The notes below the pieces were generated by a model, which was not told the DNA's origin, ran no database searches, and was given only the letters and a program-made list of their open reading frames with translations. 64,000 nt of DNA, taken from NCBI GenBank assembly GCA_025517525.1, contig JAOPJZ010000001.1, forward strand, positions 1-64,000, written 5' to 3'. The position numbers and the translations under genes are program-made. Below are positions 19,338 through 46,195 of this stretch, piece by piece. How positions within the stretch are numbered: position 1 is the stretch's first letter; each line of letters begins with the position of its first letter. Source of the stretch: Natronosalvus hydrolyticus. GTDB taxonomy: Archaea > Halobacteriota > Halobacteria > Halobacteriales > Natrialbaceae.

Positions 19338-19396
19338 GAGCCGAACCCGACAGCCGCTATCGGCTCTGTTCACACACTCGGGCTTGACGAACCACT
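19338..19396 (+). repeat. dispersed intergenic hairpin repeat, copy A
   Basis: Arms GAGCCGA (19338-19344) and TCGGCTC (19360-19366) flank a core that matches the copy at 46135-46171 at most positions (GAACCCGACA and CGCTATCGG are identical). The following GGCTTGACGAACCACT (19381-19396) is identical to 32515-32530. It lies 24 bp after the dehydrogenase stop codon. Confidence 0.7.
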
Positions 19397-19478
19397 GATA
19401 CGCTCTGTTGTAATTCTTTACCGGTGAGCGCTCGAACGGGGACAGCGCTCACCGGTAAAACGTTACAACGATCCGTAT
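19397..19478. repeat. long imperfect palindrome
   Basis: The core arms 19407-19432 and 19444-19469 pair over about 26 bp with only a short internal mismatched block, including a perfect TTACCGGTGAGCGCT / AGCGCTCACCGGTAA stem, around an 11-nt loop. Pairing extends outward with ATACG/CGTAT. It could be a transcription terminator for the upstream gene, a protein-binding site, or the core of a small mobile element. Confidence 0.75.
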
Positions 19479-19680
19479 GAGTCGGACTGAAAATCGATAT
19501 CGAGATCGATGTTCTCCTGCGTTCGGAGCTTTCGAACCTTCCTCCCTTTCAAACATTAATTGCAAGTGATATTGATACGACTCACACACCTACCGAGCAA
19601 ACAATTCTTCGGGTTGACAGTAGTTCACATGTGTCGACACCCTTTTGCTGTCTCGGGGCACAGATTCGGTCGACATTTAG

Positions 19681-20187
19681 ATGATCCGCGACCGTCTCGC
19701 TCTCTACCGTGATCGCGTTCGACGGGCGTTACTCGCGGCATTTCGAGAAGAACATACTCCACACGAGATTGCGCTGAGTTTTGCGATCGGCATTTTCATC
19801 ACGGCGATGCCCAGCGGTGGCCTCGGTATCGGGTTGTTTTTTCTGTTCGTCTACTGGTGGTCCTGGGTCAGTAAACCGGCAATCTTCGCGTCCGTCGCCG
19901 TCTTGAATCCGCTCATCAAACCATTAGTATATGTTGCGAGCTATCAGGTTGGTGCGTTTCTCTTTGGGACGGAACCGAGAGTTCCCTCGACACACAGTTC
20001 ACTCGAGACGATCATCACTATCGTCCAACTCGTGCTCATCGGCAATCTCATCATCGCACTGGTGCTTTCTGCCCTCAGTTACGTCACCGTCTTGCACCTG
20101 ACTCGTGCGCATCGTCAACAGGTTCACACGGACTCCGCTGGGTCCGCCTGGAGCAGTGTTTTGCTTTTCTTTCGACGACGAAAGTAA
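19681..20187 (+). CDS. DUF2062 family membrane protein
   Basis: The 168-residue integral membrane protein has the DUF2062 pattern: a basic N-terminal helix, then HEIALSFAIGIFITAMPSGGLG, a second hydrophobic pair (VLNPLIKPLVYVASYQVG) and a C-terminal helix pair. The family is widespread but not functionally defined; in bacteria it is sometimes fused to glycosyltransferases. It is followed closely by a convergent small membrane protein. Confidence 0.8.
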   Translation: MIRDRLALYRDRVRRALLAAFREEHTPHEIALSFAIGIFITAMPSGGLGIGLFFLFVYWWSWVSKPAIFASVAVLNPLIKPLVYVASYQVGAFLFGTEPRVPSTHSSLETIITIVQLVLIGNLIIALVLSALSYVTVLHLTRAHRQQVHTDSAGSAWSSVLLFFRRRK

Positions 20188-20191
20188 GTCG

Positions 20192-20407
20192 CTACAGGAC
20201 GGAAAACAGGATCAGTCCGAAGCCGATGAGCGTGATCAGGACACTTGATCCACGCATCACTCGCTCGCGGTCGGCGTCAGTAACCGCGTTATTATCGAGT
20301 GGCATCTTCCCTCGCTCTTTTTGTACTTCGACCATTTTCGGGGCCATCTGCAGGCCAATGACGCCGCTTGCGACCAACAGGGCACCGACGATAGCAAGCA
20401 AGCTCAT
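20192..20407 (-). CDS. small two-helix membrane protein
   Basis: This 71-residue protein has hydrophobic helices at the N-terminus (SLLAIVGALLVASGVIGLQM) and the C-terminus (SSVLITLIGFGLILFSVL) with a short charged loop between them (EVQKERGKMPLDNNAVTDAD). The start MSLLAIVG at 20407 is preferred to an upstream ATG that adds a basic, non-conserved tail. Function is unknown. It is convergent with the DUF2062 gene, with 4 bp between the stops. Confidence 0.6.
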   Translation of the reverse strand: MSLLAIVGALLVASGVIGLQMAPKMVEVQKERGKMPLDNNAVTDADRERVMRGSSVLITLIGFGLILFSVL

Positions 20408-20608
20408 CGTCGTTTCCTCCGCTCGGCGGCACCTCGTGTTCGATGCCGGTTTCCGGACAGCATATGCCATTGTTCTCGGGAGCGTTCAAAGACCTGCCGC
20501 CATCGCTGTCTCGAGGCTCCTGAGCTACAGTTGTCTGGCAAATTCCCTCGAGCGTGGTGGCGGCCGAAAACGGGAGCCATAAGTACGCGCAGCCAAACCC
20601 CTATCTAG

Positions 20609-22033
20609 ATGTCGCAGTCGCCGTTTTTGCCTCCCATCCGGACACGCCCACGGTTCGCAGCCACGTTGACGGCGACCGCACTGGGCGTGTACTTGCTGAT
20701 CATCGTCGGCGCGACAACCTCGATTACGGATGCTGCCGCGGCCTGTGGTACGTGGCCGGGCTGTGCAACACCGACTGCGCTGAGCCAGACCGAACTGGCG
20801 ATAGCGTGGGGACACCGCCTCGCTGCCGTCCTCGTGGGCGTTCTCCTCGTTGGGACGACGGCCATGGCTCTCCTGGGTGAGGTCACGCGTCGCGTAACAC
20901 TGGTTCTAGTCGCCGCTGTCGGCCTGTACACGGTGCAGGTTGGCGTCGGTGCCCTGACCGCACTCGGCGGTCCACAGGCCCTCGTCCCCGGTCTCCACCT
21001 CGCACTCGGCGTGGGTATCTTCACGCTCGTGATTCTCGCACTGGCATGGGACCTCGAGATCGCCACCGGGACCGATGACGACGCTATCGACAGTTCGCCC
21101 GAACCGATCGACCCGACCTCGAACGAAACGGCGCGCGTCGTTCCCGATGGTGGCCTCGAGCGTGCGAAACTCACCGCATTCGCGTATTTCAAAATGATGA
21201 AGCCACGGCTGATGTGGCTGCTGTGTCTGGTCGCCGCCGCGGGCATGGCACTGGCTGCGGGGCCCGACCTGAGTCGGTCGACTATCCTCGCTACTTTGGG
21301 TGGTGGGGTGCTCGCAATCGGTGCCTCGGGCACCTTCAACCACGTCCTCGAGCGAGACGTCGACCAGCGGATGTCCCGTACGGCCGACCGGCCGCTGGCG
21401 ACCGACCTGATTCCTGTCCGAAACGCGTTGCTGTTCGGCCTGTTCCTGACGGGTGCTTCGATGTCGGTGTTCCTGACGATCAACCTGCTTGCGGCCGCCC
21501 TCGGGTTCGTCGCTATCGTCTTTTACAGCGTTATCTACACGCTCGTCCTCAAACCCAACACGGTACAGAACACGGTACTGGGCGGCGCTGCTGGGGCGCT
21601 ACCGGCGCTCATCGGCTGGGCGGCCGTGACAAACGAAATCGGGCTTCCGGGCCTGGCTCTCGCCGCCCTGATCTTCCTCTGGACGCCAGCGCACTTTTAC
21701 AACCTGGCACTGGCCTATCAGGACGACTACGCTCGAGGCGGCTTCCCCATGTTGCCCGTCGTTCGCGGCGAAACCGTCACGCGAAAGCACATCCTGTACT
21801 ACATCGCGGCGACGCTCGTGGGTGCGACCGGGCTGGTCTGGCTCACCGACCTCGGCGCGCTGTATGCGGCCACAGTGGTCCTGTTCGGCGGGATCTTCCT
21901 CTGGTTTGCCGTCGACTTGCACTTCGAACAGACCGAACGCGCTGCGTTCCGTGCGTTCCACGCTTCGAACGCGTTCCTCGGGGCGGTGCTGGTCGCGATT
22001 CTGGTCGACGCACTCGTGCTCGCTGGCGTCTAA
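20609..22033 (+). CDS. ctaB: haem o synthase (protohaem farnesyltransferase) with CtaA/COX15-like N-terminal half
   Basis: The 474-residue polytopic membrane protein has two parts. Residues 1-150 resemble half of a haem A synthase (CtaA/COX15): CGTWPGC, GHRLAAVLVG and HLALG histidines. Residues 190-474 are a UbiA-type prenyltransferase with NHVLERDVDQRMSRTADRPL and the second Asp motif YQDDYARGGFPMLPV, the signature of CtaB. It should farnesylate protohaem to make haem o for terminal oxidases. This fusion is known in haloarchaea. A short linker rich in Asp and Glu joins the halves. Confidence 0.9.
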   Translation: MSQSPFLPPIRTRPRFAATLTATALGVYLLIIVGATTSITDAAAACGTWPGCATPTALSQTELAIAWGHRLAAVLVGVLLVGTTAMALLGEVTRRVTLVLVAAVGLYTVQVGVGALTALGGPQALVPGLHLALGVGIFTLVILALAWDLEIATGTDDDAIDSSPEPIDPTSNETARVVPDGGLERAKLTAFAYFKMMKPRLMWLLCLVAAAGMALAAGPDLSRSTILATLGGGVLAIGASGTFNHVLERDVDQRMSRTADRPLATDLIPVRNALLFGLFLTGASMSVFLTINLLAAALGFVAIVFYSVIYTLVLKPNTVQNTVLGGAAGALPALIGWAAVTNEIGLPGLALAALIFLWTPAHFYNLALAYQDDYARGGFPMLPVVRGETVTRKHILYYIAATLVGATGLVWLTDLGALYAATVVLFGGIFLWFAVDLHFEQTERAAFRAFHASNAFLGAVLVAILVDALVLAGV

Positions 22034-22230
22034 CGGGTTCTCTCTGGTTCGATCGACTTCGTTATCGAGCGTCGTCGATCCGCTTGAACTACGACCGATC
22101 GAGTTCAACGTCTACCGCGCCTACGTTTTCTTCGGCTGGTACGTGGTTCGGGCGCCGACGATGGGTACGCACGCGAATCGATCCTGATCCATAGTACAGG
22201 TCGAGGTACTCGGTGACGAGTCGTCGAGCG
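22034..22230. other. short convergent intergenic region
   Basis: These 197 bp separate ctaB from a convergent oxidoreductase. A stretch near 22078-22187 reads as coding-like in one plus frame (VYRAYVFFGWYVVRAPTMG) but has no ATG, GTG or TTG start, so no gene is called. An inverted repeat around 22210-22234 (CGGTGACG.. with CGTCACCG) may end transcription from one side. Confidence 0.35.
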
Positions 22231-23187
22231 TCACCGAATCTGGGGCAACACCTCTCTTTCGTAGAACTCGAGGGCCGGTTCCTCGTCGGTGCCGATCTGG
22301 TGGACGTAGATGTGATCGAAGCCCGCGTCGACCGCCTGCTGTAGCGAGTCGAGGTGGGCGTCCGGATCCGGATCGGTCACTGTCGAACCGGCTGCGATAT
22401 CTTCTTTCTCGACCAGTTGGGTCGCCTGCTCGAAGTGCGCCGGCGTCGCCAGTTCCTGGCTCAATTCGCCAGGGAGCGCCCCGTTCGGCCACTGTTCGTA
22501 GACGGTGTCGATCGCCTCGTCTTCGGTTTCGGCGTAACAGACGTCCAGTTGGGTGTACGTCGGTCCGTCGCCACCGCTGTCCTGGTAGGGCTCGATGACG
22601 GATTCCTGGGGACCGACGGTCCAGAGCCCATCTCCTTCGGTAGCGGCCATGCGGGCAGTCATCGGACCGAACGCCGAGACGACGATATCCGGAACCGTCT
22701 CGGGGACGGTGAACAGTTTCGCGTTCTCGACCGTGTAATGATTGCCGTGATAGCTTACGTTCTCGCCGGTCCAGAGTTCGCGCATGACGGCCATCGATTC
22801 CTCGAGCATCTCGAGGCGAACGGGGTGTTCAGGCCAGCGCTCGCCGACGACGTGTTCGTTCAGGTTCTCGCCCGTGCCGACCCCGAACGTGAACCGCCCG
22901 TCGGCCATCACCTGTACCGTCGCGACGGCGTGGGCCACGTTAACAGGGTGGATGCGAATGATCGGGCAGGTGACGCCGACGCCGATTTCGATGTCGTCGG
23001 TCGCTCGAGCGATCGCGCCGAGCGTACTCCAGACGAAGGGTGACTCCCCCTGTGCGGAGATCCTGGGGTGGAAGTGATCCGAAATGGAGATGAAGTCGAA
23101 CCCTGCTTCCTCGGCCTGAACCGCGAGGTCGACGAGTCGATTCGGGCCGTGTTCTTCGCTCGAGAGCGTGTAGCCGAATTTGACCAT
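22231..23187 (-). CDS. F420-dependent LLM-class oxidoreductase (TIGR03557-like)
   Basis: The 318-residue protein has the luciferase-like monooxygenase fold of F420-dependent glucose-6-phosphate dehydrogenase relatives: MVKFGYTLSSEEHGPNRLV, FDFISISDHFHPRI, FGVGTGENLNEHVVGERWP and DIVVSAFGPMTARMAA. Archaeal members of TIGR03557 often act on substrates other than sugar phosphate. The cofactor is inferred from family and from haloarchaeal use of F420. It is monocistronic. Confidence 0.85.
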   Translation of the reverse strand: MVKFGYTLSSEEHGPNRLVDLAVQAEEAGFDFISISDHFHPRISAQGESPFVWSTLGAIARATDDIEIGVGVTCPIIRIHPVNVAHAVATVQVMADGRFTFGVGTGENLNEHVVGERWPEHPVRLEMLEESMAVMRELWTGENVSYHGNHYTVENAKLFTVPETVPDIVVSAFGPMTARMAATEGDGLWTVGPQESVIEPYQDSGGDGPTYTQLDVCYAETEDEAIDTVYEQWPNGALPGELSQELATPAHFEQATQLVEKEDIAAGSTVTDPDPDAHLDSLQQAVDAGFDHIYVHQIGTDEEPALEFYEREVLPQIR

Positions 23188-23290
23188 GGGTGATCATCTA
23201 CGGTGACGCGAGTAGTTTGGTGACTTGCATGTGCTACCACGAGACGGAACCGGGCATCGTCTGTGTGACTCCCGTCAAAACGAGGCTCTC

Positions 23291-25069
23291 CTATTCGGCG
23301 TGTTGCCAGACGGCACCTGCGGAACCCGCTAGCACCCAGGTCCCGTCTGCATCGCTTCGTTCGGCACCGTCACCGACGGTGAACAACCGGTCTGCGTCCG
23401 CCTCGAGGGTCAGACTGGACGGCTGCTCGCCGCGGTTGATCGCGACGGTGAGCGTCCGCGTGTTTCCGTTGTCGAGCTCGAACAGCCGTCGATACACGAG
23501 CAGGTCCGCCGTACACTCTTCCTGGACGAATCGACACCGGCCGCGTCTGAGCGCACGGTGATCGTGGCGCAACTGAATGAGTTGCGAGACGAACGCTCGG
23601 AGGTCGCGATTCTGTTTCGTCTCGTCCCAGATCATCGTGCGTCGGCAGTCCGGGTCGTGACCGCCCGTCATGCCGATCTCGTCGCCGTAATAGATACACG
23701 GCGTTCCCGGGGAGGTGAGTTGCAAGAAAAACGCCAGCCGTAGCCGTTGTTCGTCGCCGTCACAGCGATGGAGCATTCGCGGGGTGTCGTGGCTGCTCAA
23801 CAGGTTGAACAGCACTTCGTTGACCTGTTCGGGATACCGCACCTGGAACTGGGTGTTCTTTTCGGCGAAGGTACTGGCGTCGATGTCGTCGGTCGCGAGG
23901 AAGTCGTAGGCGGTGTAGCTGAACGGGTAGTTCATCACCGAATCGAACTGGTCGCCCCGGAGCCAGGCACTCGAGTCGTGCCAGATCTCACCGAGGATGT
24001 ACGCCTCCGGTTTGATCGCTTTGACCGCCTGGCGCATCTCTCGCCAGAACTGGTGGTCGACCTCGTTTGCCACGTCGAGTCGCCAGCCGTCGATGTCTGC
24101 GACCTCGATCCAGTGGGTGGCGACCTCGAGCAAGTAGGATTTTACCTCCGGGTTTTCGGTGTTGAGCTTCGGCATGTAGGGTTCGAACGCGAACGCATCG
24201 TAGCTGGGTTTCGGTTCGAACTCGATGGGGAACTCCCGGATGTGGAACCAGTCGGCGTACTCGGAGTCTTCGCCGTGTTCGAGTACGTCCTGAAACGGCT
24301 CGAACTGCCTGCCACAGTGGTTGAAAACGGCATCGAGCATGACGCGAATGTCACGCTCGTGGGCTGCATCGACCAGCGCTTTGAGGGTTTCTTCGTCGCC
24401 GAAGTGAGGGTCTATGGTGTGATAATCCGTCGTGTTGTACTTGTGATTCGAGGTTGACTCGAAAACGGGCGTCAGATACAGCGCGGTCACGCCGAGATCG
24501 TCAATGTACTCGAGGTTGTCGATGATACCCTGAATATCACCGCCGAAGAAGTTATTTCGTTTTGGTTGGTCGCCCCAGTCTTCGACGTCTTCGGGGTCGA
24601 GGTCGGGATTGCCGTTGGCGAATCGCTCGGGAAAAATCTGATAGAAGACGGCGTCGTTCGCCCATTCGGGTGGATCGTTGATATCGGCGGGATTGACGAA
24701 CGGATACTCGAAAAAGTGTAACGTGCCGTTTTCTTCCCGTTCGGGCACTGAACCAGTTACCGGTTCGAACCCCCACTCGGTGAACCACAGCGATTCGTCT
24801 TCGGCCTCGAGTTCGAACACATAACACAGACGTCGGTAGGGAGGGATTGCCGTTGCTTGCCAGTAATCGAACGTCTCGTCGTGACCGAGACGCTCCATCG
24901 AAACGCGTTTGGCGCTGTCTGGCCAGTCGTACTTGTCGCCGTAGAGCAGCGTCACGTCCTCGAGGTCGCCGCGTTCGGTGCGGAGTCTAACGTGGACGGT
25001 CGACTCGTCGTACGCGTAGGCGTAGTTACTCTTTGGGCGGTGGTGGACGGCTGCTCGAGAGATTGGCAT
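23291..25069 (-). CDS. GH13 glycosidase, cyclomaltodextrinase / neopullulanase type
   Basis: The 592-residue enzyme has an N-terminal carbohydrate-binding-like domain (about 1-120), typical of the maltogenic/cyclomaltodextrinase subfamily, a catalytic barrel and a C-terminal beta domain. The catalytic triad is D332 (DGWRLDVANEV), E361 (YILGEIWHD) and D428 (LSSHDTPR); VMLDAVFNHCG is also present. It lacks a signal peptide, so it should cleave imported maltodextrins in the cytoplasm. It follows malG by 114 bp on the same strand and is part of the malto-oligosaccharide locus. Confidence 0.9.
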   Translation of the reverse strand: MPISRAAVHHRPKSNYAYAYDESTVHVRLRTERGDLEDVTLLYGDKYDWPDSAKRVSMERLGHDETFDYWQATAIPPYRRLCYVFELEAEDESLWFTEWGFEPVTGSVPEREENGTLHFFEYPFVNPADINDPPEWANDAVFYQIFPERFANGNPDLDPEDVEDWGDQPKRNNFFGGDIQGIIDNLEYIDDLGVTALYLTPVFESTSNHKYNTTDYHTIDPHFGDEETLKALVDAAHERDIRVMLDAVFNHCGRQFEPFQDVLEHGEDSEYADWFHIREFPIEFEPKPSYDAFAFEPYMPKLNTENPEVKSYLLEVATHWIEVADIDGWRLDVANEVDHQFWREMRQAVKAIKPEAYILGEIWHDSSAWLRGDQFDSVMNYPFSYTAYDFLATDDIDASTFAEKNTQFQVRYPEQVNEVLFNLLSSHDTPRMLHRCDGDEQRLRLAFFLQLTSPGTPCIYYGDEIGMTGGHDPDCRRTMIWDETKQNRDLRAFVSQLIQLRHDHRALRRGRCRFVQEECTADLLVYRRLFELDNGNTRTLTVAINRGEQPSSLTLEADADRLFTVGDGAERSDADGTWVLAGSAGAVWQHAE

Positions 25070-25183
25070 ATCTAAATCGCACACTACAGACGGGGTTATA
25101 TCTGTTGGCTGTGGCAGGTCAGAAACAGAGAAACCGCACGCTCAACGGTGTGGTTCGATAGAAGAACGCTGGTTTCGAGGCGG

Positions 25184-26257
25184 TTATCCTTCGACGCCGC
25201 CGAAGGAGAGACCGGCCTCGATATAGCGCTGGGCGAACAGGTAGACGAAGACAATCGGTGACGCATACACCAGCGCGAACGCCGAGAACTGCCCCCACGG
25301 CACCGAGTAGGTGTCGACCAGCATGAACAGGCCGACCGGGAGCGTGTAGTTCTCGGGGCGCAACACTAGCTGTGCTACGATGAACTCCATCCAGCCGGTG
25401 AGGAAGATGAAGATGAGGATGGTCGCCAGACCGGGCTTGGCCAGCGGCAAGACGACTTCCCAGGCGACACGGAAGGGGGATGCACCGTCCATAATCGCGG
25501 CCTCTTCGTAAGAGACCGGTATCGAGTCCATATACGTCTTCAACAGCCAGGTGTTAAACGGCACGGCAAGCGCTGCGTAGTAGACCGCAAGCACTAGCCG
25601 GTTGTTCGCGACACCGAAGCTCACGAAGATCGTATACAGGGCGATCAACCCGGCGATACCGAGCCCACCGCCGACCTGCGTAAACAGGATGTAACCGTAC
25701 AACAGCTTCATGCGGCCGGCGAACTGCCGTCGCGAGAGCGCATAGGACGCCGGGATGACGACCGACAGCGCGATGACGACGGTGAAGAAGCCGACAACCA
25801 TGCTGTTGACGAAGTATCGTGGGAAGTTCGACGTCGAATCCACGTACGGACTCGAGTCGAAGAACACGATTCGCGGCCAGGAGAGGAAGAACTCTCCGAG
25901 GAACGGAATGCTGATTCCGACGATCTTCGCGGGGATAGCGATGTCGCCGATCACCCAGATGAAGGCTTCGAAGTTGATCTGGGTCGGAATCAGGCCCGCG
26001 CTGTCGGTCGAGTACAGGGTCGCTCCTTCGCCCTGGAGGGCGATCAGGAGGATCCAGTAGACGGGTAACAACAGCACGAAGACGAACGCGAAGACGGCAA
26101 GCGTCGACAGTGCCGTTTTGGCGACGTCTTTGGGATCGATGATCCCGCGTTGTATCCCCTCGATGGTGTACTCGACTTCCGCGCGCCACTCTCGAGGTTT
26201 GTTGATAGCCGTCGAAAGGTCCTTTTTGAGTTTCTTGCCGACAATATCTCCCAACAT
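25184..26257 (-). CDS. maltodextrin ABC transporter permease (MalG type)
   Basis: The 357-residue inner-membrane permease has about six helices and the cytoplasmic EAA motif EEAAIMDGASPFRVAWEVVLPLAKPG, typical of sugar ABC transporters. An N-terminal soluble extension of about 55 residues and a loop of about 70 residues between the first helices are present. It overlaps malF by one base (TAATG), indicating coupled translation. With the MalF-type permease it should form the channel for the binding protein at 27261. Confidence 0.9.
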   Translation of the reverse strand: MLGDIVGKKLKKDLSTAINKPREWRAEVEYTIEGIQRGIIDPKDVAKTALSTLAVFAFVFVLLLPVYWILLIALQGEGATLYSTDSAGLIPTQINFEAFIWVIGDIAIPAKIVGISIPFLGEFFLSWPRIVFFDSSPYVDSTSNFPRYFVNSMVVGFFTVVIALSVVIPASYALSRRQFAGRMKLLYGYILFTQVGGGLGIAGLIALYTIFVSFGVANNRLVLAVYYAALAVPFNTWLLKTYMDSIPVSYEEAAIMDGASPFRVAWEVVLPLAKPGLATILIFIFLTGWMEFIVAQLVLRPENYTLPVGLFMLVDTYSVPWGQFSAFALVYASPIVFVYLFAQRYIEAGLSFGGVEG

Positions 26258-27249: not shown

Positions 27250-27260
27250 TGGTTAGGTGT

Positions 27261-28577: not shown

Positions 28578-28607
28578 GGTGAATACGTGATGAATTATGA
28601 CTTCACC
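28578..28607 (-). promoter_or_regulatory. candidate operator before the binding-protein gene
   Basis: GGTGAA (28578-28583) and TTCACC (28602-28607) form a perfect inverted repeat with 18 bp between. It abuts the start codon and lies just downstream of an AT-rich box (CTAAATAGG, minus strand, about 28605-28613). A regulator bound here could block or control transcription. Binding by the local TrmB protein is a guess. Confidence 0.35.
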
Positions 28608-28665
28608 TATTTAGTCCTTTGGATGTGGATGAGAACGCTTGACATGTGTGGGCCGCTCTCGCCCT

Positions 28666-32488: not shown

Positions 32489-32509
32489 CGCCGTTGGGAA
32501 GGAAGTCCG

Positions 32510-32631
32510 TTCAGGCTTGACGAACCACTCGTCCCCTCCCAGACGTCGACCCCTGCGTGAAACCGGACCACAGCCATCGGTTTCACGCATATGTTCAGGG
32601 TTGGGAAGTCACCAGTGCCGTCCCTCGTTGT
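32510..32631 (+). repeat. dispersed intergenic hairpin repeat, copy B
   Basis: It has perfect 11-bp arms GCGTGAAACCG (32555-32565) and CGGTTTCACGC (32578-32588). Upstream of the stem, 32525-32548 matches 46105-46128 at 22 of 24 positions (CCACTCGT-x-CCCTCCCA-x-ACGTCGAC). Downstream, TTCAGGGTTGGGAAGTCAC (32594-32612) resembles TTCAGGTTTGGGAAGCCAC in copy C. It begins about 20 bp after the malK stop. Confidence 0.7.
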
Positions 32632-32805: not shown

Positions 32806-33178
32806 GACATCCTCCCCGCCCTGAAGGTCGAGGATTCCCACGGCACCGCACCGCTGGGTTGGGATGGTTACGGTTTGTAGACACCCTGGAGGGCGACTAC
32901 TGGCTGTGCCAATCAGCCGTTACTCCTATCCCGACATGGGATTCAGAGATACTTTTTGACTGCACCCCGCTTCTGACACAGAAGGGGTGTCTTCTGCTTG
33001 GAATCGGGAATCGCGATATTGTCCGATTAGGTGGGCGGATAGACCGCCTCGGATGTGTATGCTTACGACCCATAAGTACTTAAAAACATCACCCCGGCAC
33101 CTCGAACACCCCCTGTGGCAGCGTTGTCGGATTCATCCCACGACTAAAGTCGTGGGCTTTCTCCTGTTTCTCTGGTAA
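32806..33178. mobile_element. IS200/IS605-like remnant or transposase-less (PATE/MITE-like) element
   Basis: One end carries CCTCCCCGCCCTGAAGGTCGAGG (32811-32833 region), very like the hairpin end common in haloarchaeal IS200/IS605 elements next to tnpB. The other end carries CCCACGACT-AA-AGTCGTGGG (33137-33156), a perfect 9-bp subterminal palindrome of the kind found in these elements. The roughly 330 bp between contain no tnpA or tnpB reading frame. Exact borders and the parent element cannot be set by eye. Confidence 0.6.
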
Positions 33179-33207
33179 AAACGAGCGTTCAAACAATCTC
33201 CCGAGAG

Positions 33208-36462: not shown

Positions 36463-36540
36463 TAGTGATTCGTGGACTATCGAGGCACTCGAACGGTCCC
36501 GTCTCCACTCGAGTGTCTCAGGATTTCCACGAATCGCTAT
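36462..36540 (+). terminator. large hairpin after the trmB gene
   Basis: Arms ATAGTGATTCGTGGA (36462-36476) and TCCACGAATCGCTAT (36526-36540) pair with a single mismatch. An inner pair GGCACTCGA (36484-36492) / TCGAGTGTC (36509-36517) strengthens the fold. It begins at the trmB stop codon. No U-tract follows, so intrinsic termination is not proven; it may protect the mRNA end or bind protein. Confidence 0.45.
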
Positions 36541-36592
36541 AATCGCGTCCGTCGTCCATCACACTTAGGCTCACGGCCGCTGAAATCCACTC

Positions 36593-37243: not shown

Positions 37244-37320
37244 TCGGGTGCCCGGAAACGGTCTCACCACGCCAACGGCGAACACAACCTTTCAAATCCT
37301 CTCGCCCCAAGGGACTCCCA

Positions 37321-38298: not shown

Positions 38299-38325
38299 GT
38301 TCGGGGAAGGGCCGACTGGGGCGAA

Positions 38326-39537
38326 TTATCGGCCGACGTTCGATGGTTCACACTCTCCCAGTTCGTGCCGTACGAGGTCGACCGCCTCGCGGACGGAGCC
38401 GATCGATGAGAGATAGCCGACGCCGACGGTGGTTTTCAGCGCCTTCGCTGGAGCCCCGGTGAACACCGAGGGGCCAACCTGGGCCACGGCGTCGTCACCG
38501 ACGCTGACCAGCCAGCCGGGCGATTCGAACGTAAAGCTCTCGAGTCGCGGCTCGAACACGCCACCCTGGTGTTCGTACTCGATCAACCGACGAATGCTCT
38601 CGGCGACGACGGTCGCTTCGCGAACCGCGGATTGGGCACTCGCCGGGACGGCTTCGCCATCGGCGTCGATAACCCGCGCTGCGTCGCCGACGACGAACGT
38701 TCGGTCCTCGAGACGCAGGTCGCGATTGACCTGCGGGCGCTCGCCCTCGAGTGCGTCCGGCCCGCGGATGCCGCCGGTCCAGACGAAGACGTCTGCCGGG
38801 AGCGTGCGTTCGATATCCGCGTCCTCGAACTGCGCGGTAACGTGCGTCTCACCGGCTTCGGTTACCGTGGCGTCAGTCCGAACGTCGACGCCGACCCGTT
38901 CGAGGACCTCGCGCGTGGCTTGCTGAAACGACTCGTCGAACCCCGGCGCGACGGTGGGGGCTTGCTCGAAGAGGGTGACAGTCGCCGTCCCCTCGTCGAC
39001 GCGGTCCGGGGCTGATTCCTCGAGGAGCGCGGCCAGTTCGCCAGCAACCTGAATTCCAGAGAGGCCGGCTCCGCCGACGACGATATCGACCGATTCGGCA
39101 TCGCTTTCGAGGGCCCTCTGGACTCGGGATCGAATTGCAGTTGTATCACTGAGACGCTTCAACGGCAGTGCGTGTTCACGGACGGATTCGAGGCCGTAGA
39201 ACGCGGTTTCGGCTCCGAGACAAACCGCACAGTAGTCGTAGGCGAGTGTTCCATCCTCGAGGTGTGTTCCGTCTTCGAGGTGAACGGTTCGCGTCTCGGT
39301 ATCGACCGATTCGACCACGCCGACGTGGACCGTCGCTCGCTCGAGCAGGTCGGTGAGGGGAATCGAAATCTCGTCCGCAACCGATGGTCGACGAATCACG
39401 CGGTGGAGTTCGTGCTGGACGAGGTGTACCGGCGAATCGTTGACCAGGGTCAACTCGATATCGACCGGGAGGTCCCGCTCGAGCGCTCGCATCAGTGTCA
39501 CTCCAGCGTAGCCACCACCGAGGACGACGACGTGCAT
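38326..39537 (-). CDS. NAD(P)/FAD-dependent oxidoreductase (NADH dehydrogenase type II-like)
   Basis: The 403-residue flavoprotein starts with the FAD-binding GGGYAG motif (VVVLGGGYAGVTLM), has a second NAD-binding GGAGLSGI motif near 160, and the late FAD motif FVVGDAARV. The fold matches type II NADH:quinone oxidoreductases; no transmembrane helix is obvious, so it may be peripheral. The start at 39537 gives the usual beta-strand beginning and removes a long basic leader. The electron acceptor is inferred, not seen. It is convergent with fen. Confidence 0.82.
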   Translation of the reverse strand: MHVVVLGGGYAGVTLMRALERDLPVDIELTLVNDSPVHLVQHELHRVIRRPSVADEISIPLTDLLERATVHVGVVESVDTETRTVHLEDGTHLEDGTLAYDYCAVCLGAETAFYGLESVREHALPLKRLSDTTAIRSRVQRALESDAESVDIVVGGAGLSGIQVAGELAALLEESAPDRVDEGTATVTLFEQAPTVAPGFDESFQQATREVLERVGVDVRTDATVTEAGETHVTAQFEDADIERTLPADVFVWTGGIRGPDALEGERPQVNRDLRLEDRTFVVGDAARVIDADGEAVPASAQSAVREATVVAESIRRLIEYEHQGGVFEPRLESFTFESPGWLVSVGDDAVAQVGPSVFTGAPAKALKTTVGVGYLSSIGSVREAVDLVRHELGECEPSNVGR

Positions 39538-39689
39538 ACCCCAAGTTGGGGCTCGAGCAGTATAGGTCTGCTCGAGAGGGGGGCGGTTGCTGGTTCCCCG
39601 GGTGACGACAGTGCGAGGAAGCAAGGCTCCCCGTCGGTACACAACAGGTGACGCAAAATCCGGCTGGGGAGGCGTTCGGTTCTAGAACT

Positions 39690-40676
39690 CTAGAACAGGT
39701 GTTCGTCTTCGCCCTCGAGCAGGCGTGCGGGGCCACCGACGCCCCAGGTGGTCGTCGAGACGCCGGTTTCGGCGATGGCTTCCTCGACCTGTTCGGCGTG
39801 TTCGGCCGTCGTGTTGACGTAGACGCTCGCGCCGGTGTCCGTCGAGAAGTACACGGGGATGTCCTCTTCCTCGCGGAGTTCGCGCACTTTGTTGAAGATG
39901 GCCAGCGTGGCTGGCTGCCAGTAGACCCAGCCCTCGGGGCCGGTCATCGTCGTCGCCGCGAGACTCAGCGAGTCGTGTTCGGCCAGTTCGAACGCGTCCT
40001 CGAACTCGTCGTTTCGCAGCGCGTCGCGCATCTTCGCGATCTGGCCGTGGATGTGGGCGTTTCGGGCCTGGAACATGTGGCTGTCTGCGGCTTCGTCGTG
40101 GGCGTCTTCGGTTTCTTTGTGGTATGGAACCAGCCCGACGACGATCTTGAGTTCTTCGTGTAAGTTACTCGGGACGCGACGGGAGACGCAGTCGTCGTCG
40201 TTCATGCCCGTATACAGCTGCGAGAACGCACCGGTCACCGAGCGGGCGGCCGAGGCCGACCCGACACGGGCGATGGTCGATATCTCTTGCATCGAGGCGT
40301 CGAGGTCGGCCGCCTCGGCGAGCGCTCGAGCGGCTGCGGCGAAACCCGAGGACGAGGATCCGAGCCCGACGTTCGAGGGGAAGCTGTTCTCGCTCTCGAT
40401 GTGAACCGGGTAGACGGTGTGGGCCGCGTCGGACATGCCACGGGCCTTCTCGACGACTGCCTCGAGACGGTCGAACGCCCGTCCCTCGAGTTCTTCGCCG
40501 TCGACGACGTAGGTGTCTTCGTCGTAGTCCATCGAGAACTCGACGGTCGTACGGGTGTGACTCGGTGCCGTACAGACGCTAATGCTGTCGTGGTAGGGCA
40601 GCCGTTCGATGTCGTCTCGCATGCCGTGGTATTTGATGAGCCCCTGAATCGGGTGGGCCATCGCCGTCGCTTTCAT
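39690..40676 (-). CDS. mvaD: phosphomevalonate decarboxylase (haloarchaeal MvaD)
   Basis: The 328-residue GHMP-superfamily enzyme has the kinase-like loop PSNVGLGSSSSGFAA and the decarboxylase motifs SFSQLYTG-like (GAFSQLYTG) and FSTDTGASVYV. The Haloferax homologue was shown to decarboxylate mevalonate 5-phosphate to isopentenyl phosphate, the altered mevalonate route for archaeal lipid isoprenoids. The start MKATAMAHPIQGLIKYHG fits known homologues; the upstream extension is not conserved. It is monocistronic. Confidence 0.9.
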   Translation of the reverse strand: MKATAMAHPIQGLIKYHGMRDDIERLPYHDSISVCTAPSHTRTTVEFSMDYDEDTYVVDGEELEGRAFDRLEAVVEKARGMSDAAHTVYPVHIESENSFPSNVGLGSSSSGFAAAARALAEAADLDASMQEISTIARVGSASAARSVTGAFSQLYTGMNDDDCVSRRVPSNLHEELKIVVGLVPYHKETEDAHDEAADSHMFQARNAHIHGQIAKMRDALRNDEFEDAFELAEHDSLSLAATTMTGPEGWVYWQPATLAIFNKVRELREEEDIPVYFSTDTGASVYVNTTAEHAEQVEEAIAETGVSTTTWGVGGPARLLEGEDEHLF

Positions 40677-40793
40677 ACACTCACACGAGAGTGTTGGCCG
40701 CTTAAAGGTCACGGCATCCCGGGCGCTCGAGTCGGTGACTTGACCTCCTCCGTCGCACACGTTAGTCACTCGACGAAAAATCCGGTTTCGGTA

Positions 40794-41987
40794 CTATTTG
40801 AGCGCTGTCTGTAACTCCTCGCGCCACTCGGCTGCCTCGTCGGTCACCTGCTCGAGCGTCTCGATCCGGTCTTCGATATCGCCCACCTCGCCCTCGAGTT
40901 CGGCCGACAACTCGGCTTCGAGGTCGTCGATTGCCGCCCTGATTTCGTCTGCCGTCTCCCCAAGCCGGTCGCCGAATCGCTCTTCTGTTGTCTCGAGTTC
41001 GGCTTCGAGCCCCTCGAGTTCGTCGGTCGCTTCCTCGAGGCGTTCGTCCGTCCTCGTAAGGTCAGTCTCGAGGGCTTCGGCAGTCTCCTCGAGTGTTCCG
41101 ATATCGTCGTCGTGCGCCTCGAGTTCGTTTTCGAGCGTCTCGAGTTGGTCGCCAATTCGTTCTTCGAGGTCGTCGACATCTCCCTCGAGCACGTCGATTT
41201 CGTTCTCGAGTTCGCTTTCGACGGTTACGACACGGTCGAGAAGGTCGGCTTCGAGCGTCTCGAGTCGGTCGCCGATTCTACCCTCGACCTCCTCGATCTC
41301 GGCTTCGAGTGTTGTCGCCCGCTCGTCGACCCGTGCTTCGAGCGTTTCGAGACGTTCTTCGAGCGTGTCACGGTCCCGTTTCCGTCGCTCCTCGAGGTCG
41401 TCCAGTCGGTCAGTAATCGTTTCGTGGTTGGCTTCGGCCGTATCGACGTGCGCTTCGAAATCATCGCGAACCGTATCGACGGTGGCTCCGATTTCGGCCA
41501 GCGAATCCTCGAGTGAGTCGCGTGCGGCGTCGAAATCGGTTCGAAGCTCGTTGGTTTCGCTTTCGACCGTCGAGAGCGTCGTCTCGAGTGTTTCGAGTTG
41601 CTCGTCGACACTGTCGAGTCGCTCCGCGAGCCGTTCGTCGGTCGAATCGAGATCATCGACGCTTTCCTCGAGTGAGCGGATGTCGGCGGTCGCTGCTTCG
41701 AGCCCGTCCTGTACGTCGGCTAGCACGGTCTCTGCAGTCCCGTTCTCGTCCAGAAACTCGCCGAGTGAATCGGTGTAGGCCTCGAGCTGTGCCAGCGTCG
41801 ATTCGACGTGCTCGAGGCGGACCTCGTTGCTGGTCGTCGTGTCGATGTTCAGTGCGCGACGAAGTGCCTCCCGTTTGGCTCCCCCTTCGTCCGATTTCAG
41901 TTCGATGAGCAACGCATCGAGCAACGCTTCGTCGAATCGGTCGTGCGGTTCGTCAGGCAATGTGAGTGGTTTGTTCTGTGCAGTCAT
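40794..41987 (-). CDS. long coiled-coil acidic protein
   Basis: The 397-residue protein begins with a short folded-like segment (about 1-60, PDEPHDRFDEALLDALLIELK) and is then almost entirely heptad-rich coiled coil (about 65-395) with Leu/Glu/Asp repeats such as LEERLETLEARVDERATTLE. It has no membrane helix and very low aromatic content after the first 80 residues. It could be a structural or chromosome-associated protein; the family is not recognised. The antisense Ser-rich frame is an artefact of its codon pattern. Confidence 0.75.
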   Translation of the reverse strand: MTAQNKPLTLPDEPHDRFDEALLDALLIELKSDEGGAKREALRRALNIDTTTSNEVRLEHVESTLAQLEAYTDSLGEFLDENGTAETVLADVQDGLEAATADIRSLEESVDDLDSTDERLAERLDSVDEQLETLETTLSTVESETNELRTDFDAARDSLEDSLAEIGATVDTVRDDFEAHVDTAEANHETITDRLDDLEERRKRDRDTLEERLETLEARVDERATTLEAEIEEVEGRIGDRLETLEADLLDRVVTVESELENEIDVLEGDVDDLEERIGDQLETLENELEAHDDDIGTLEETAEALETDLTRTDERLEEATDELEGLEAELETTEERFGDRLGETADEIRAAIDDLEAELSAELEGEVGDIEDRIETLEQVTDEAAEWREELQTALK

Positions 41988-42135
41988 GGCTGGTCGTCAG
42001 TGCGGACTCCCCCCAGAGTCACTTCAATACACAAACCTCGAGTGTAATAATAGTATCTTTCTTTCTTCCATATTGAGACCTCCAGACTCGAGCGAACCGA
42101 ATTCCTGAAATGGACTGCCTCGAAAGGGTCGGCCA

Positions 42136-42819
42136 ATGGGAATTCCGCTGGAGGACCGAACGGCGCAGGCGACCGAAGTGATCGAACGACTCGAACACGA
42201 GTATCCCGAATCGACGATTTCACTTCGGTACTCGAACCGCCTCGAGTTGTTGATCGCGGTGATGCTCTCGGCGCAGTGTACGGACGAGCGCGTTAATACC
42301 GAAACCGAAAATCTGTTCGAGACCTATCGAACGCCCGAGGACTACGCGAACGCGCCACAGGAGGAACTCGCCGAGGCTTTGAACTCGATCACCTACTACA
42401 ACAATAAAGCGAAGTACATCCGCAGCGCGTGCCAGACGATCGTCGACGAACACGACGGCGAGGTGCCGGACACGATGGACGAACTGATTGAACTCTCGGG
42501 CGTGGGCCGAAAGACGGCAAACGTCGTCCTCCAGCACGGGCACGATATCGTCGAGGGAATCGTCGTCGATACGCACGTCCAGCGACTCACCCGACGACTC
42601 GGACTGACTGAAGAGCAGCATCCCGACCAGATCGAACAGGACCTGCTCTCAGTTATTCCCGAATCGGCATGGCAGCAATTCACCCATCTCTGTATCGACC
42701 ACGGTCGGGCCGTTTGTTCGGCTCGGTCCGCTGATTGTGGGGCGTGTGTACTTGCGGATATCTGCCCGTCGGAAAAAGGTGATAGCGAAATCGACCTCGC
42801 CTCTAGCGAACCCTGGTAG
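42136..42819 (+). CDS. nth: endonuclease III
   Basis: The 227-residue base-excision repair glycosylase/AP lyase has the helix-hairpin-helix LSGVGRKTANVVL with catalytic K126, catalytic D145 in VDTHVQRLTRRLG, and the 4Fe-4S cluster C194-x6-C201-x2-C204-x5-C210. It should remove oxidised pyrimidines and cut the abasic site. All key residues are present. It is transcribed alone. Confidence 0.95.
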   Translation: MGIPLEDRTAQATEVIERLEHEYPESTISLRYSNRLELLIAVMLSAQCTDERVNTETENLFETYRTPEDYANAPQEELAEALNSITYYNNKAKYIRSACQTIVDEHDGEVPDTMDELIELSGVGRKTANVVLQHGHDIVEGIVVDTHVQRLTRRLGLTEEQHPDQIEQDLLSVIPESAWQQFTHLCIDHGRAVCSARSADCGACVLADICPSEKGDSEIDLASSEPW

Positions 42820-42914
42820 GTTCGGCGGTCACCCTGTCACGTTCGCCACACCCGTGGTTTCCAATGCAAGCCAAGTCCCCTTCACGATTCACCGACACTG
42901 GTGAGTTGGGTACA

Positions 42915-43151
42915 ATGTCCGAAGACACAGAACACGGGCGAGACGTCGAACTGGCCAAAGAAGACCCCGAAGCCGACGAAGAAGAGGACGAGCAACTCAC
43001 CGAAGCGGAGCAGGAGGCTCGAGAGCGCGCGGACGAAGCGGAGCAAAAGGAGGATATCAAACACGGCTCGACCGAACGCGAAACCGACGCCCTCGAGAAC
43101 ACCAACCCGGACCACCACCGGGACGAAGAACCGTACAATAGCTCGAGTTGA
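42915..43151 (+). CDS. small, highly charged acidic protein
   Basis: The 78-residue protein is rich in Glu and Asp (KEDPEADEEEDEQLTEAEQE), predicted helical or disordered, and lacks cysteines and membrane helices. The start MSEDTEHGRD is preferred over an ATG 17 codons upstream. Comparable small acidic proteins are common in haloarchaea. Function is unknown. Confidence 0.55.
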   Translation: MSEDTEHGRDVELAKEDPEADEEEDEQLTEAEQEARERADEAEQKEDIKHGSTERETDALENTNPDHHRDEEPYNSSS

Positions 43152-43192
43152 GCGCGTTGCTGGCTTTGCTGTTCTTTTCTTGCGTGACCGTA

Positions 43193-43339
43193 TCGAGCGA
43201 CGTGCTCACAAAAGCTCGCCCATAGCAGATGCGAGAGTACGCTCTCGCTTGCTCTGGGCTCGCTACACTCGCCCAGAACGACGACGTAATCGCTCCGCGA
43301 TCACTTCGAGCGATGCGCTCGCAAAAGCTCGCACATAGC
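43193..43339 (+). repeat. 34-bp direct repeat with hairpins upstream of ribH
   Basis: Copies at 43193-43226 and 43306-43339 match at 30 of 34 positions (shared core AAAAGCTCGC-x-CATAGC). Between them lie two hairpins: GCGAGAG-TAC-GCTCTCGC (about 43230-43247) and TCTGGGC...GCCCAGA (about 43253-43277). It spans the region just before the lumazine synthase gene and may be regulatory or a remnant of a small repeated element. Confidence 0.55.
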
Positions 43340-43375
43340 GGTACCTCTTTTACCCGCCCACACCACCGCTCGAGT

Positions 43376-43786
43376 ATGACCACGCTCGGTCTGGTGATCG
43401 CGCAATTCAATCGGCCGATTACCGAACAGATGGAAGACGCTGCCCTCGAGGCGGCCACGTCGGCCGGTGCCGAGGTCGCCGAGGTCGTCTCGGTGCCCGG
43501 CGTCTACGATGCACCGCTGGCTGCTGACCGACTCGCCCGACTCGAGGCCATCGATGCTGTCGTCGTTATCGGGACCGTGATCACCGGCGATACCGACCAT
43601 GATCAGGTCATCACCGATGCCGCTGCCGGCCGACTCGCAGATGTGAGCCTCGAGCGTGACACCCCGGTTACCCTCGGCGTCACTGGCCCGGGAATGTCGG
43701 CCGCGGAAGCCCGCGAACGCGTCGATAACGCAGCCAAAGCCGTCGACGGTGCGCTCGACCTCGTCGACGAACTGCCGCCCCCGTAG
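43376..43786 (+). CDS. ribH: 6,7-dimethyl-8-ribityllumazine synthase
   Basis: The 136-residue enzyme joins a ribityl pyrimidine with dihydroxybutanone phosphate to form lumazine, the riboflavin precursor. It shows the N-terminal FN motif (IAQFNRPIT), PGVYDAPLA (the PGA/S-x-E-L-like site) and the catalytic GTVITGDTDHDQVIT with H75. The start at 43376 gives the family N-terminus. The FAD synthase gene lies only 2.4 kb away, so flavin genes are clustered loosely. Confidence 0.9.
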   Translation: MTTLGLVIAQFNRPITEQMEDAALEAATSAGAEVAEVVSVPGVYDAPLAADRLARLEAIDAVVVIGTVITGDTDHDQVITDAAAGRLADVSLERDTPVTLGVTGPGMSAAEARERVDNAAKAVDGALDLVDELPPP

Positions 43787-43900
43787 CCGTTCCTCGAGAA
43801 CGACCGGCGCGAACCACCACACGGCGCGAATCACTACACGGACCGTCGAACACGACGGTCGACACCAACCGCTCGCTGTCCACCGAACCATCACCTGACA

Positions 43901-45049
43901 ATGACCATGGAATTCACCGACCGCGTTTCCCGCGTTGAACCGTCTGCAACCCTGACCATCTCGGCGCTCGCCACCGAACTCGAGGCCGACGGCGTCGACG
44001 TCGTCGATCTCAGTGTCGGCGAACCGGATTTTCCAACCCCACAGAACATCATCGATGCCGGCCAGCAGGCCATGGACGATGGCTACACCGGCTACACGAC
44101 CCCTGCAGGCCACCTCGAGCTTCGAGAGGCGATCAGCGAGAAACTCGCCGCTGACGGCCTCGAGCACGGCCCCGACGAAATCATCGTCACACCGGGAGCG
44201 AAACAGTCCCTCTACGAGATCATCCAGGCGCTGATCCAGGACGGCGACGAAGTCGCCCTCCTCGACCCCGCGTGGGTGTCCTACGAGGCGATGGTCAAAA
44301 TGGCCGGCGGCGACCTCACACGGGTCGACCTCTCTGGGACCGACTTCCAGCTCGAACCGGCGCTCGAGGACCTCGCTGAAGCCGTCTCCGACGACACCGA
44401 ACTCTTGATCGTCAACTCGCCGTCGAACCCCACGGGCGCGGTGTACTCGGATGCCGCGCTCGAGGGCGTTCGCGATCTGGCCGTCGAACACGACATCACC
44501 GTCATCTCCGACGAAATTTACAAGGAGATTACCTACGGCGTCGAACCGACCAGTCTGGGCACCCTCGAGGGGATGGCCGACCGGACAGTGACGGTCAACG
44601 GCTTCTCGAAAGCCTACTCGATGACCGGCTGGCGGCTGGGGTATTTTGCCGGGCCAAAAGACCTGATCGATCAGGCTGGCAAGCTCCACAGCCACTCGGT
44701 GTCCTCAGCGACGAACTTCGTCCAGATGGCCGGTATCGAAGCCCTCGAGCACACCGACGAGGCCGTCGAGGAGATGGTCGAAGCGTTCGCCGACCGTCGC
44801 AACCTGGTCGTCGACTTGCTCGCTGACCACGACGTCGACGTCGCCGTCCCCGAGGGGGCATTTTATATGATGCTCCCAGTAGATGCCGACGATCAGGCCT
44901 GGTGTGAGGGAGCTATCGAGGACGCCCACGTGGCAACGGTTCCCGGAAGCGCGTTCGGGACGCCCGGCTACGCTCGCATTTCGTATGCCGCAAGCGAGGA
45001 ACGACTCCGTGAAGGAATCGAGCGACTCGCTGACGAAGGCTATCTGTAG
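43901..45049 (+). CDS. class I/II aminotransferase (aspartate aminotransferase-like)
   Basis: The 382-residue PLP enzyme has DLSVGEPDFPTP, YTTPAGHLELREAI, NSPSNPTGAVY and the PLP-lysine motif VNGFSKAYSMTGWRLGYF, plus a C-terminal substrate Arg region (YARISYAASEERL). It fits subgroup I-gamma aspartate-type aminotransferases; the amino acid specificity is not fixed by sequence. A second possible ATG lies two codons in. It is transcribed in the same direction as ribH with a 114-bp gap. Confidence 0.9.
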   Translation: MTMEFTDRVSRVEPSATLTISALATELEADGVDVVDLSVGEPDFPTPQNIIDAGQQAMDDGYTGYTTPAGHLELREAISEKLAADGLEHGPDEIIVTPGAKQSLYEIIQALIQDGDEVALLDPAWVSYEAMVKMAGGDLTRVDLSGTDFQLEPALEDLAEAVSDDTELLIVNSPSNPTGAVYSDAALEGVRDLAVEHDITVISDEIYKEITYGVEPTSLGTLEGMADRTVTVNGFSKAYSMTGWRLGYFAGPKDLIDQAGKLHSHSVSSATNFVQMAGIEALEHTDEAVEEMVEAFADRRNLVVDLLADHDVDVAVPEGAFYMMLPVDADDQAWCEGAIEDAHVATVPGSAFGTPGYARISYAASEERLREGIERLADEGYL

Positions 45050-45103
45050 ACCGACGTTCCGACTGTTACTACGCTGGCGACGAATCTCTCATTTTACTGT
45101 GGT

Positions 45104-45110
45104 ATTTATA
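45104..45110 (+). promoter_or_regulatory. TATA box of the histidine kinase gene
   Basis: ATTTATA at about 45104-45110 lies 24-30 nt before the ATG at 45134, as expected for a haloarchaeal leaderless transcript. Confidence 0.45.
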
Positions 45111-45133
45111 GGATTGGTTTCCAATACAGTGTC

Positions 45134-46018
45134 ATGGACCGAGTAGACGAGTCGAGACTGACACCTATTCAGATCGCAGGCATTTACGCGCTCTGTGGCT
45201 CGATCTGGATCGTGATCACCGACCAACTCGTCGAATGGCTGTTGCCATCTGTCGCCACGATGACCTACGCACAAACCGTCAAGGGCCTGCTCTTTGTCGC
45301 TGGCTCGGCGGTGCTGATTTACCTGCTGACCAGACGTAGCACCCGCCAACTCGAGCGGACGAACCGCCGACTCGACCTCACGCTCAGACACTCGAGCGTG
45401 TTACATCGAATTCTCCGACACAATCTGCGAAACTCCTGTAACGTGATTCAGGGAACCGCCGACACGCTGCGAACTGAGGAATCATCGGACAACTCGGACG
45501 CACTTGACCGGATCGATGATGAAGCAGCACAACTCGTCTCCCTTTCGGAAAAGAGTCGGTCGCTCGAGTCGGTTATTGGCCCAGAGCGACAGCGTCACGT
45601 CGAACACGACCTGACTGTGCTCCTCGAATCGCGAGTCGAGCAGTACCGCGAGCGATTTCCGACGGCCACCATCGAGGTGAACGCCACTCCGGATGTGCAG
45701 CTTTCGGCACACCCGAAATTCGAACTCGCCGTCGACGAACTGCTCGAAAACGCGCTGGTTCATACCGACCGAGGGGAACCGACCGTCACCTGTACGCTCG
45801 AGGTCGAAAACGGCCGGATAACACTCGAAATAACCGACGACGGGAGCGGTATGCCACCGATCGAACAGCAAGCAATCAACACTGCAGCCGAGGACCAGCT
45901 CGTTCATTCCGATGGGCTTGGACTCTGGTTGACGAAACTGCTGGTGTTAGAGTCGGGCGGTCGGTTCGAAATAGCAAGTGACGGAACCCGTGGAACGACT
46001 ATCAGAACGGTTTTTTGA
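45134..46018 (+). CDS. membrane sensor histidine kinase
   Basis: The 294-residue kinase has two N-terminal transmembrane helices (about 11-34 and 50-68) with a very short external loop, then an H-box HRILRHNLRNSCNVI (His near 97), and an ATPase domain with N-box DELLENALVHT, G1 DDGSGM and G2 GLGLWL. There is no PAS or GAF sensor and no adjacent regulator, so the signal and partner are unknown. The small size suggests it senses through its membrane helices. Its stop is followed by the hairpin repeat copy C. Confidence 0.88.
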   Translation: MDRVDESRLTPIQIAGIYALCGSIWIVITDQLVEWLLPSVATMTYAQTVKGLLFVAGSAVLIYLLTRRSTRQLERTNRRLDLTLRHSSVLHRILRHNLRNSCNVIQGTADTLRTEESSDNSDALDRIDDEAAQLVSLSEKSRSLESVIGPERQRHVEHDLTVLLESRVEQYRERFPTATIEVNATPDVQLSAHPKFELAVDELLENALVHTDRGEPTVTCTLEVENGRITLEITDDGSGMPPIEQQAINTAAEDQLVHSDGLGLWLTKLLVLESGGRFEIASDGTRGTTIRTVF

Positions 46019-46061
46019 TAGCAAAGTCCATCCTTTCGCGAGATTCCAACCAGCGACTGCT

Positions 46062-46195
46062 GGGTGAAACCATCGGTTTCACTTATCGCTTCAGGTTTGG
46101 GAAGCCACTCGTACCCTCCCAAACGTCGACGGGTGAGCTGAACCCGACAATCGCTATCGGTTCGGTTCAGCCGTTCAGGTTTGGGAAGCCACTAC
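46062..46195 (+). repeat. dispersed intergenic hairpin repeat, copy C (two tandem hairpins)
   Basis: The first stem is GTGAAACC (46064-46071) / GGTTTCAC (46075-46082), the second GCTGAACC (46137-46144) / GGTTCAGC (46164-46171). Each is followed by TTCAGGTTTGGGAAGCCAC. Between them CCACTCGT-x-CCCTCCCA-x-ACGTCGAC matches copy B. The second unit is closely related to copy A. It lies directly after the histidine kinase and its end overlaps the stop codon of convergent ribL. Confidence 0.75.

Follow-up and report, generated by a model that had tools for sequence, protein, structure and literature searches.

A dispersed family of hairpin repeats with marks of mobility in the haloarchaeon Natronosalvus hydrolyticus

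Hairpin repeats in the window and in the genome

The stretch of DNA analysed here (the window) comprises the first 64,000 nucleotides of contig JAOPJZ010000001.1 from Natronosalvus hydrolyticus (assembly GCA_025517525.1; 4.54 Mb in 67 contigs, labelled G000). It contains hairpin repeats at three sites, A, B and C, each following a plus-strand gene. The three sites hold members of a single 80-nt family. This family of hairpin repeats is real and large and bears marks of mobility: its target rule is clear, its arms are linked and its units have a strong tendency to lie on stop codons. The genes preceding A, B and C encode a Glu/Leu/Phe/Val dehydrogenase, an ABC-transporter ATPase and a histidine-kinase-like protein, respectively, and have nothing evident in common. 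The measured distances to their stop codons are 1, 43 and 20 bp, consistent with a preliminary description of this DNA, made from the sequence alone, which placed the repeats within about 45 bp.

The 80-nt core of unit A, which has a type I basal stem, occupies positions 19315–19394 of the plus strand (78.2 bits in cmsearch, and alignment). It is preceded by its left target copy, CTGAG (19310–19314, plus strand), containing the TGA stop codon of the dehydrogenase gene (18057–19313). Site B consists of a right-half remnant of a type I unit (32509–32529, plus strand), identified from the sequence and a half-motif scan, which stands in tandem ahead of unit B, an 80-nt core with a type II basal stem (32532–32611, plus strand; cmsearch 86 bits). 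At site C the shortened and decayed unit C1 (46039–46107, plus strand; 47.9 bits in the genome-wide model search, and spacing) lies head-to-tail with unit C2 (46112–46191, plus strand; cmsearch 95.6 bits), with 4 bp between the cores. Unit C2 has a type II basal stem and a type I-like apical stem, and abuts the stop codon (46192–46194, minus strand) of a cytidylyltransferase-like gene. All three sites of the preliminary description hold family members, while their borders need correction, as A starts at 19315 and B and C are each compound. The shared segments and the four stems it listed are present as written; all 24 letters named for the match between B and C agree, although the tally should read 24 of 26, since both variable positions differ, rather than 22 of 24.

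A covariance model placed the three copies at 19310–19402 (E 1.3e-21), 32527–32619 (E 4.9e-24) and 46107–46199 (E 5.3e-27), scores that are not independent because all three copies are among the 39 training units. Independent support is provided by a BLAST search of the genome with copy B alone. At an E cut-off of 1 it returned 57 match rows, which include cases where one place is hit on both strands, and the strongest match other than copy B itself has an E of 4.4e-27. Genome-wide, the model yielded 146 rows, or 137 copies after removal of nine opposite-strand duplicates. This number is a floor, as only 150 candidates were scored; the family therefore has at least 137 copies, far exceeding three loci, and the copies are not unique to this genome.

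In a typical unit the sequence is TACCCTCCCAAACGTCGACCGATGCGTGAAACCG ... CGGTTTCACGCATCCGTTCAGGTTTGGGAAGCCA, flanked on each side by CTAG. In type I units the basal stem contains CCGTCA(A/C)GC and the apical stem GAGCCGAACC, type II units display TCCCAAAC with GTTTGGGA and GTGAAACC, and mixed units combine the basal stem of one type with the apical stem of the other. Some units are ∼10 letters shorter at the tip. Ten tandem pairs within 40 bp were found in the N. hydrolyticus genome, all with 4 or 5 bp between the cores, in head-to-tail or tail-to-tail orientation. With respect to genes, 48 of the 137 copies lie between convergent and 20 between divergent genes.

The preliminary view that the stems are kept despite sequence change is borne out by strong covariation. 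In 40 units chosen from many genomes, 19 of 26 named pairs were altered on both sides and 87.6% of the cells pair. The covariation score was 0.414, compared with 0.170 for shuffled and at most 0.105 for slid alignments; because the structure was drawn by eye from these same 40 units, the slid control is biased in its favour. RNAalifold, applied to 39 units, returned 18 pairs, 13 of which show two-sided change. Unpaired fixed marks recur in both alignments, TAC and GTCGAC on the left and GTTCAG and CCA on the right.

Matches occur in 57 of 125 Natrialbaceae genomes (N. hydrolyticus included) and 21 of the 29 genera of the family. Sampling of 392 genomes across the order gave matches in 44, of which 41 belong to the family, and none at E 1e-6 in the other 348. 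When the genus was scanned with the left-half pattern, allowing up to two mismatches, there were 118 places in N. hydrolyticus, 109 in its nearest relative compared (G111) and 2 to 10 in six others, the reversed pattern giving 0 or 1. Such low counts in the six genomes indicate that the copy expansion is particular to N. hydrolyticus and G111. In one subfamily of a further genome, G122, 14 left half-motifs without mismatch and 14 right ones sharing one identical mismatch are all 64 bp apart. Ten of these units, examined at different places, are 98.8–100% identical and mostly flanked by CTAG on both sides; these near-identical copies are a recent burst. No phage matched at E 1e-3, and the plasmid matches belong to a single record, from Natronosalvus amylolyticus, with 7 places. 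In one annotated record that was checked no gene lies under the match, in a table that lists protein genes only. Among the outliers beyond the family (G145, G190 and G210), the neighbours of four of the eight matches were viewed and no transposase was seen by eye, no family search being made.

Insertion targets and stop codons

In the 45 of the 137 N. hydrolyticus copies in which both flanks were recognised, the same CTAG or CTNAG (collectively CT(N)AG) was present on both sides in 42, whereas in 10,000 shuffles this number averaged 15.5 and never exceeded 27. The corresponding figure for other genomes is 69 of 70, from 99 copies. These are what remained, once repeated places had been removed, of 108 matches taken from the top of a set of 150 aligned ones (the table lists 205); they are the best hits of their genomes and not a random draw. 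The presence or absence of N agrees between left and right in 53 of 54 cases from the 109 N. hydrolyticus units that score 55 bits or more, and in 73 of 74 cases from the 99 copies elsewhere. Where CTNAG occurs on both sides, N is the same letter in 22 of 27 and 4 of 4 units, respectively. Insertion of a single strand into CTNAG would yield an N on just one flank; the observed letters therefore favour a double-strand cut.

The letters at the target are compatible with two duplication lengths, 4–5 bp if the whole target is counted or 0–1 bp if AG...CT belongs to the element. Outside N. hydrolyticus, AG precedes the unit in 95 of 99 copies and CT follows it in 94, while the outer CT and AG are found in 82 and 86, respectively. 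The pattern is weaker in N. hydrolyticus, with inner AG and CT in 79 and 98 of 109 units and the outer letters in 75 and 81. Because the inner letters are the more constant, conservation leans towards the second alternative, in which the unit would be 84 bp, AG...CT, with 0–1 bp duplicated.

Stop codons, located with a simple gene caller written for this analysis, fall inside the target in 44 of the 137 N. hydrolyticus copies and 43 of the 99 copies elsewhere. By comparison, of the unoccupied non-coding CT(N)AG sites, counted without overlapping stretches, 43 of 353 in N. hydrolyticus (P 7e-7) and 22 of 160 elsewhere (P 1.5e-7) contain one, so that the share in occupied targets is 2.6 to 3.2 times that among free sites. 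In N. hydrolyticus the stop is in the right target in 32 copies and the left in 12 (P 0.004), a side bias that did not recur in the 99 copies from other genomes, where 22 are right only, 17 left only and 4 both. Units of different subfamilies sit on the same stop codon in G084 and G080, while G081 and G082 lack a unit there and the gene ends in TAA. As insertions that break genes are lost, the enrichment can reflect survival and need not be an aim of the element. The coincidence has a precedent in bacterial repetitive extragenic palindromic (REP) sequences of the GTAG kind, which are described as often supplying a TAG stop codon (PMC3733652).

Several other features were noted. A second palindromic repeat, with 39-nt arms that are 79% complementary, adjoins copy A at 19394–19482; relatives with ends near CTGATACGG...CCGTATGAG occur elsewhere in the genome (18 BLAST rows, some overlapping or from both strands). 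At the place of copy A, following the same gene, G111 has ∼580 bp of different, repeat-like DNA (L118:3424–4004). The histidine-kinase-like (HATPase) gene at 45134–46018, ahead of site C, has no counterpart at the corresponding place in G111; there, the aminotransferase gene that comes before has a unit on its stop codon instead. A stretch at about 32810–33180 of the window is also absent from the same place in G111; its ends resemble IS605-type termini, and it is perhaps a palindrome-associated transposable element (PATE). A third repeated motif, TTTCACTGGCTACTAT, has 19 occurrences on both strands in the window and overlapping stretches of the genome, and part of it lies directly beside several units (for example in the flanks of C45:75057, C7:1200 and C2:81666). 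The window contains no tRNA, and tRNA identity was rejected for the units.

Mode of movement and rival explanations

The sequence evidence makes it probable that the family is a non-autonomous mobile hairpin, resembling miniature inverted-repeat transposable elements (MITEs) or short mobile repeats (SMRs), whose insertion at CT(N)AG involves cutting of both strands by a predicted enzyme. The unit is one long imperfect hairpin of about 80–84 bp. Both ends would be recognised by a trans-acting enzyme, a DDE-type transposase of unassigned family being the most likely candidate, for which reason the two arms would have to match and change together, and the fixed unpaired marks may tell the ends apart. 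Both strands of the palindromic CT(N)AG would be cut symmetrically and the gap filled, duplicating the target. As CT(N)AG can hold a whole stop codon (C-TAG, C-TGA-G or C-TAA-G) and is copied, a gene hit at its very end would stay intact and the insertion would be kept. A bolder proposal, which is doubtful, is that the hairpin represents a new class of archaeal mobile element aimed at stop codons. In this scheme the enzyme would cut both strands of CT(N)AG immediately 3′ of CT and read hairpin shape and fixed mismatches rather than stem sequence, such that subfamilies could swap whole stems and still move. The preliminary suggestion of a recently spread REP-like element holds as regards spread, given the at least 137 copies, the matching flanks, one empty site and the near-identical copies in G122, but neither the arms nor the target tag are those of a bacterial REP.

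A number of observations weigh against the reading as a mobile hairpin. At least one side is unrecognisable in 92 of the 137 copies, and the use of two target lengths is unusual for one DDE enzyme. Of three places where G111 matches were compared with the window, two had flanks that were too divergent and one is an empty site, a single CTCAG (36517–36521), yet the unit it faces in G111 is a truncated type I unit with CTCAG on the right and a left repeat that has changed to CTGGAG. Five aligned unit-free sites do not contain CT(N)AG: the TAA stops in G081 and G082, a TGA stop in G039, CTGAT at the place of copy A in G111, and GTAG at a window position where G111 carries a unit. A sixth, near 9640 of the window and one of the two places with divergent flanks, reads CTGAA where G111 has CTGAG. 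Later change could explain these sites, although a pre-existing target is not demonstrated by them. With respect to the enzyme, no autonomous copy with these ends was present among the 30 of 124 PF01609 loci examined (7 genomes, some loci cut by contig ends; other transposase families not searched for). An inspection of G122 confined to the ends of one subfamily revealed no autonomous element and left a solitary half of each kind, one left and one right. As this partial search, in which HUH, IS110 and other families were not sought, found no element combining such ends with a transposase, the enzyme is a predicted one. A DDE_1 (PF01609) partner was rejected for the loci examined, none of which has CT(N)AG repeats with matching ends; one candidate, L322, agrees at 11 of 18 letters and is not credible. 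Lone half-units at the two loci followed, L210 and L211, are truncated units; inspection of these stretches by eye, with no family search of the neighbours, showed no element of transposase size bounded by a matching right half.

Covariation of this extent might instead reflect a structured RNA or 3′-end element, such as a terminator or stability hairpin, kept by selection after genes, as the preliminary description had proposed for a folded RNA. The frequent position of copies near gene ends, in convergent and also divergent gaps, and the right-hand excess of stop codons in N. hydrolyticus are in keeping with such a role, though the side bias was not seen elsewhere. A finer view came from 88 of the 137 units that align without gaps, 83 of which form three subfamilies of 40, 22 and 21 units. 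Within these, 320 one-sided changes comprise 237 mismatches and 83 G-U pairs, a wobble share about that predicted from 54% transitions. Since one-sided changes generate wobble no more often than chance, an RNA guarded at each locus is unlikely, and selection for a folded RNA is not borne out. Two-sided changes number 81, and the 54 that restore the pair, where independence expects 51 two-sided changes of any kind, are commoner than expected by chance and count in favour of the RNA reading; they look like inherited sub-lineages. Stems are less variable than tips in subfamilies IIa and IIb, which favours the RNA reading, but more variable in type I. No Rfam family matched in the window at gathering scores, which together with the lack of a wobble excess led to rejection of an RNA family, and most sampled genomes of the order lack the repeat at the threshold used. 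Overall, a structured RNA is the least probable of the explanations considered, and the covariation is better read as a requirement of a moving element than of a conserved RNA. Matching arms could also arise with no role in movement, as palindromes are known to be corrected by template switching. In line with such correction, comparisons between subfamilies show many two-sided changes and few wobble pairs. Switching should, however, erase left–right differences, and the subfamilies examined still have them (GTCGAC versus CTGAAC read from the opposite strand), while decayed copies change mostly on one side (320 against 81 two-sided). Template switching is thus an unlikely source of the pairing.

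Two further explanations accept mobility but differ in its chemistry. In one, the repeats are like REPINs, hairpins formed by REP doublets, and an HUH tyrosine transposase (the REP-associated RAYT or an IS200 TnpA) moves them in single-stranded form with the hairpin itself as substrate. In favour of this, the units are long hairpins of similar size with covarying arms, tandem and inverted stacking and a mainly intergenic location; compensatory changes are reported for REPINs too (PMC3116915), and the supply of TAG stops by GTAG REPs adds to the likeness. If one strand were joined into CT^NAG, a single flank would carry N, whereas 27 N. hydrolyticus units have N on both; the duplicated N likewise disfavours IS605-like single-strand insertion. 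The single arms, by inspection, are not palindromic as those of REPINs are, the tag is CT(N)AG rather than of GTAG type, and the host is archaeal. Movement of this kind is therefore distinctly unlikely. The other explanation invokes site-specific recombination, in which a circle with a CTAG junction recombines with a chromosomal CTAG through a tyrosine, serine or IS110-like recombinase. Head-to-tail units abut as though CTAG were the circle junction, and the same core sequence lies on both sides. Very similar units, in contrast, occupy CTAG, CTCAG and CTTAG, so the variable letter seems to come from the target and not the lineage of the element, and recombination of a circle is accordingly improbable.

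Known repeats and CTAG biology

The closest kinds of element to the CT(N)AG hairpins are the Haloquadratum short mobile repeats, bacterial REPINs and MITEs, and assignment to none of these is demonstrated. SMR-A of Haloquadratum walsbyi is ∼110 bp, has prominent inverted repeats and reaches 54 copies per genome, and its mobilisation is termed enigmatic; it is described as having a strong target preference, directed at PATE/IS605 palindromes, no similarity to transposons and no target duplication (PMC3119063). The present family, compared by description only, is similarly haloarchaeal, short, built of inverted repeats and numerous (80-nt core, 137 copies), while its target is CT(N)AG, often a stop codon, with 0–1 or 4–5 bp duplicated depending on where the ends are placed. 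It is close in kind to the Haloquadratum repeats. MITEs are short, non-autonomous elements with inverted repeats, a duplicated target and high copy number, as outlined in PMC10969869. The hairpins have terminal inverted repeats (arms of ∼34 nt), are far smaller than the ∼600 bp limit, with no coding capacity as judged by size only, and display target duplication of ambiguous length. They differ from MITEs in that covariation extends over most of each arm, where a MITE preserves one fixed terminal sequence, and in that the partial search described above found no parent transposon. IS5-group elements use CTAG-like targets (YTAR) of fixed 4 bp; the CTAG target is shared, but CTNAG is used here too. 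Integron attC sites carry RYYYAAC and GTTRRRY boxes, and an attC identity was rejected as type I units, by inspection, have no AAC/GTT at the stem end. Among the titles and abstract openings listed in a literature search, in which coverage of subscription papers was limited, none describes this hairpin family.

The choice of target bears on a wider feature of haloarchaeal genomes. CTAG is strongly depleted in the window, with 30 occurrences compared with 226 expected from base composition. CTAG is described as under-represented in haloarchaea, most of which carry an orphan CTAG methyltransferase, and the reasons are called open (PMC5867850, PMC6471742). With a copy of CT(N)AG on either side, the element opens part of this question to testing. 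If the interpretation as a mobile hairpin is correct, a mobile sequence present in more than 100 copies in at least this genome would show how a genomic parasite can live on the ends of genes without breaking them.

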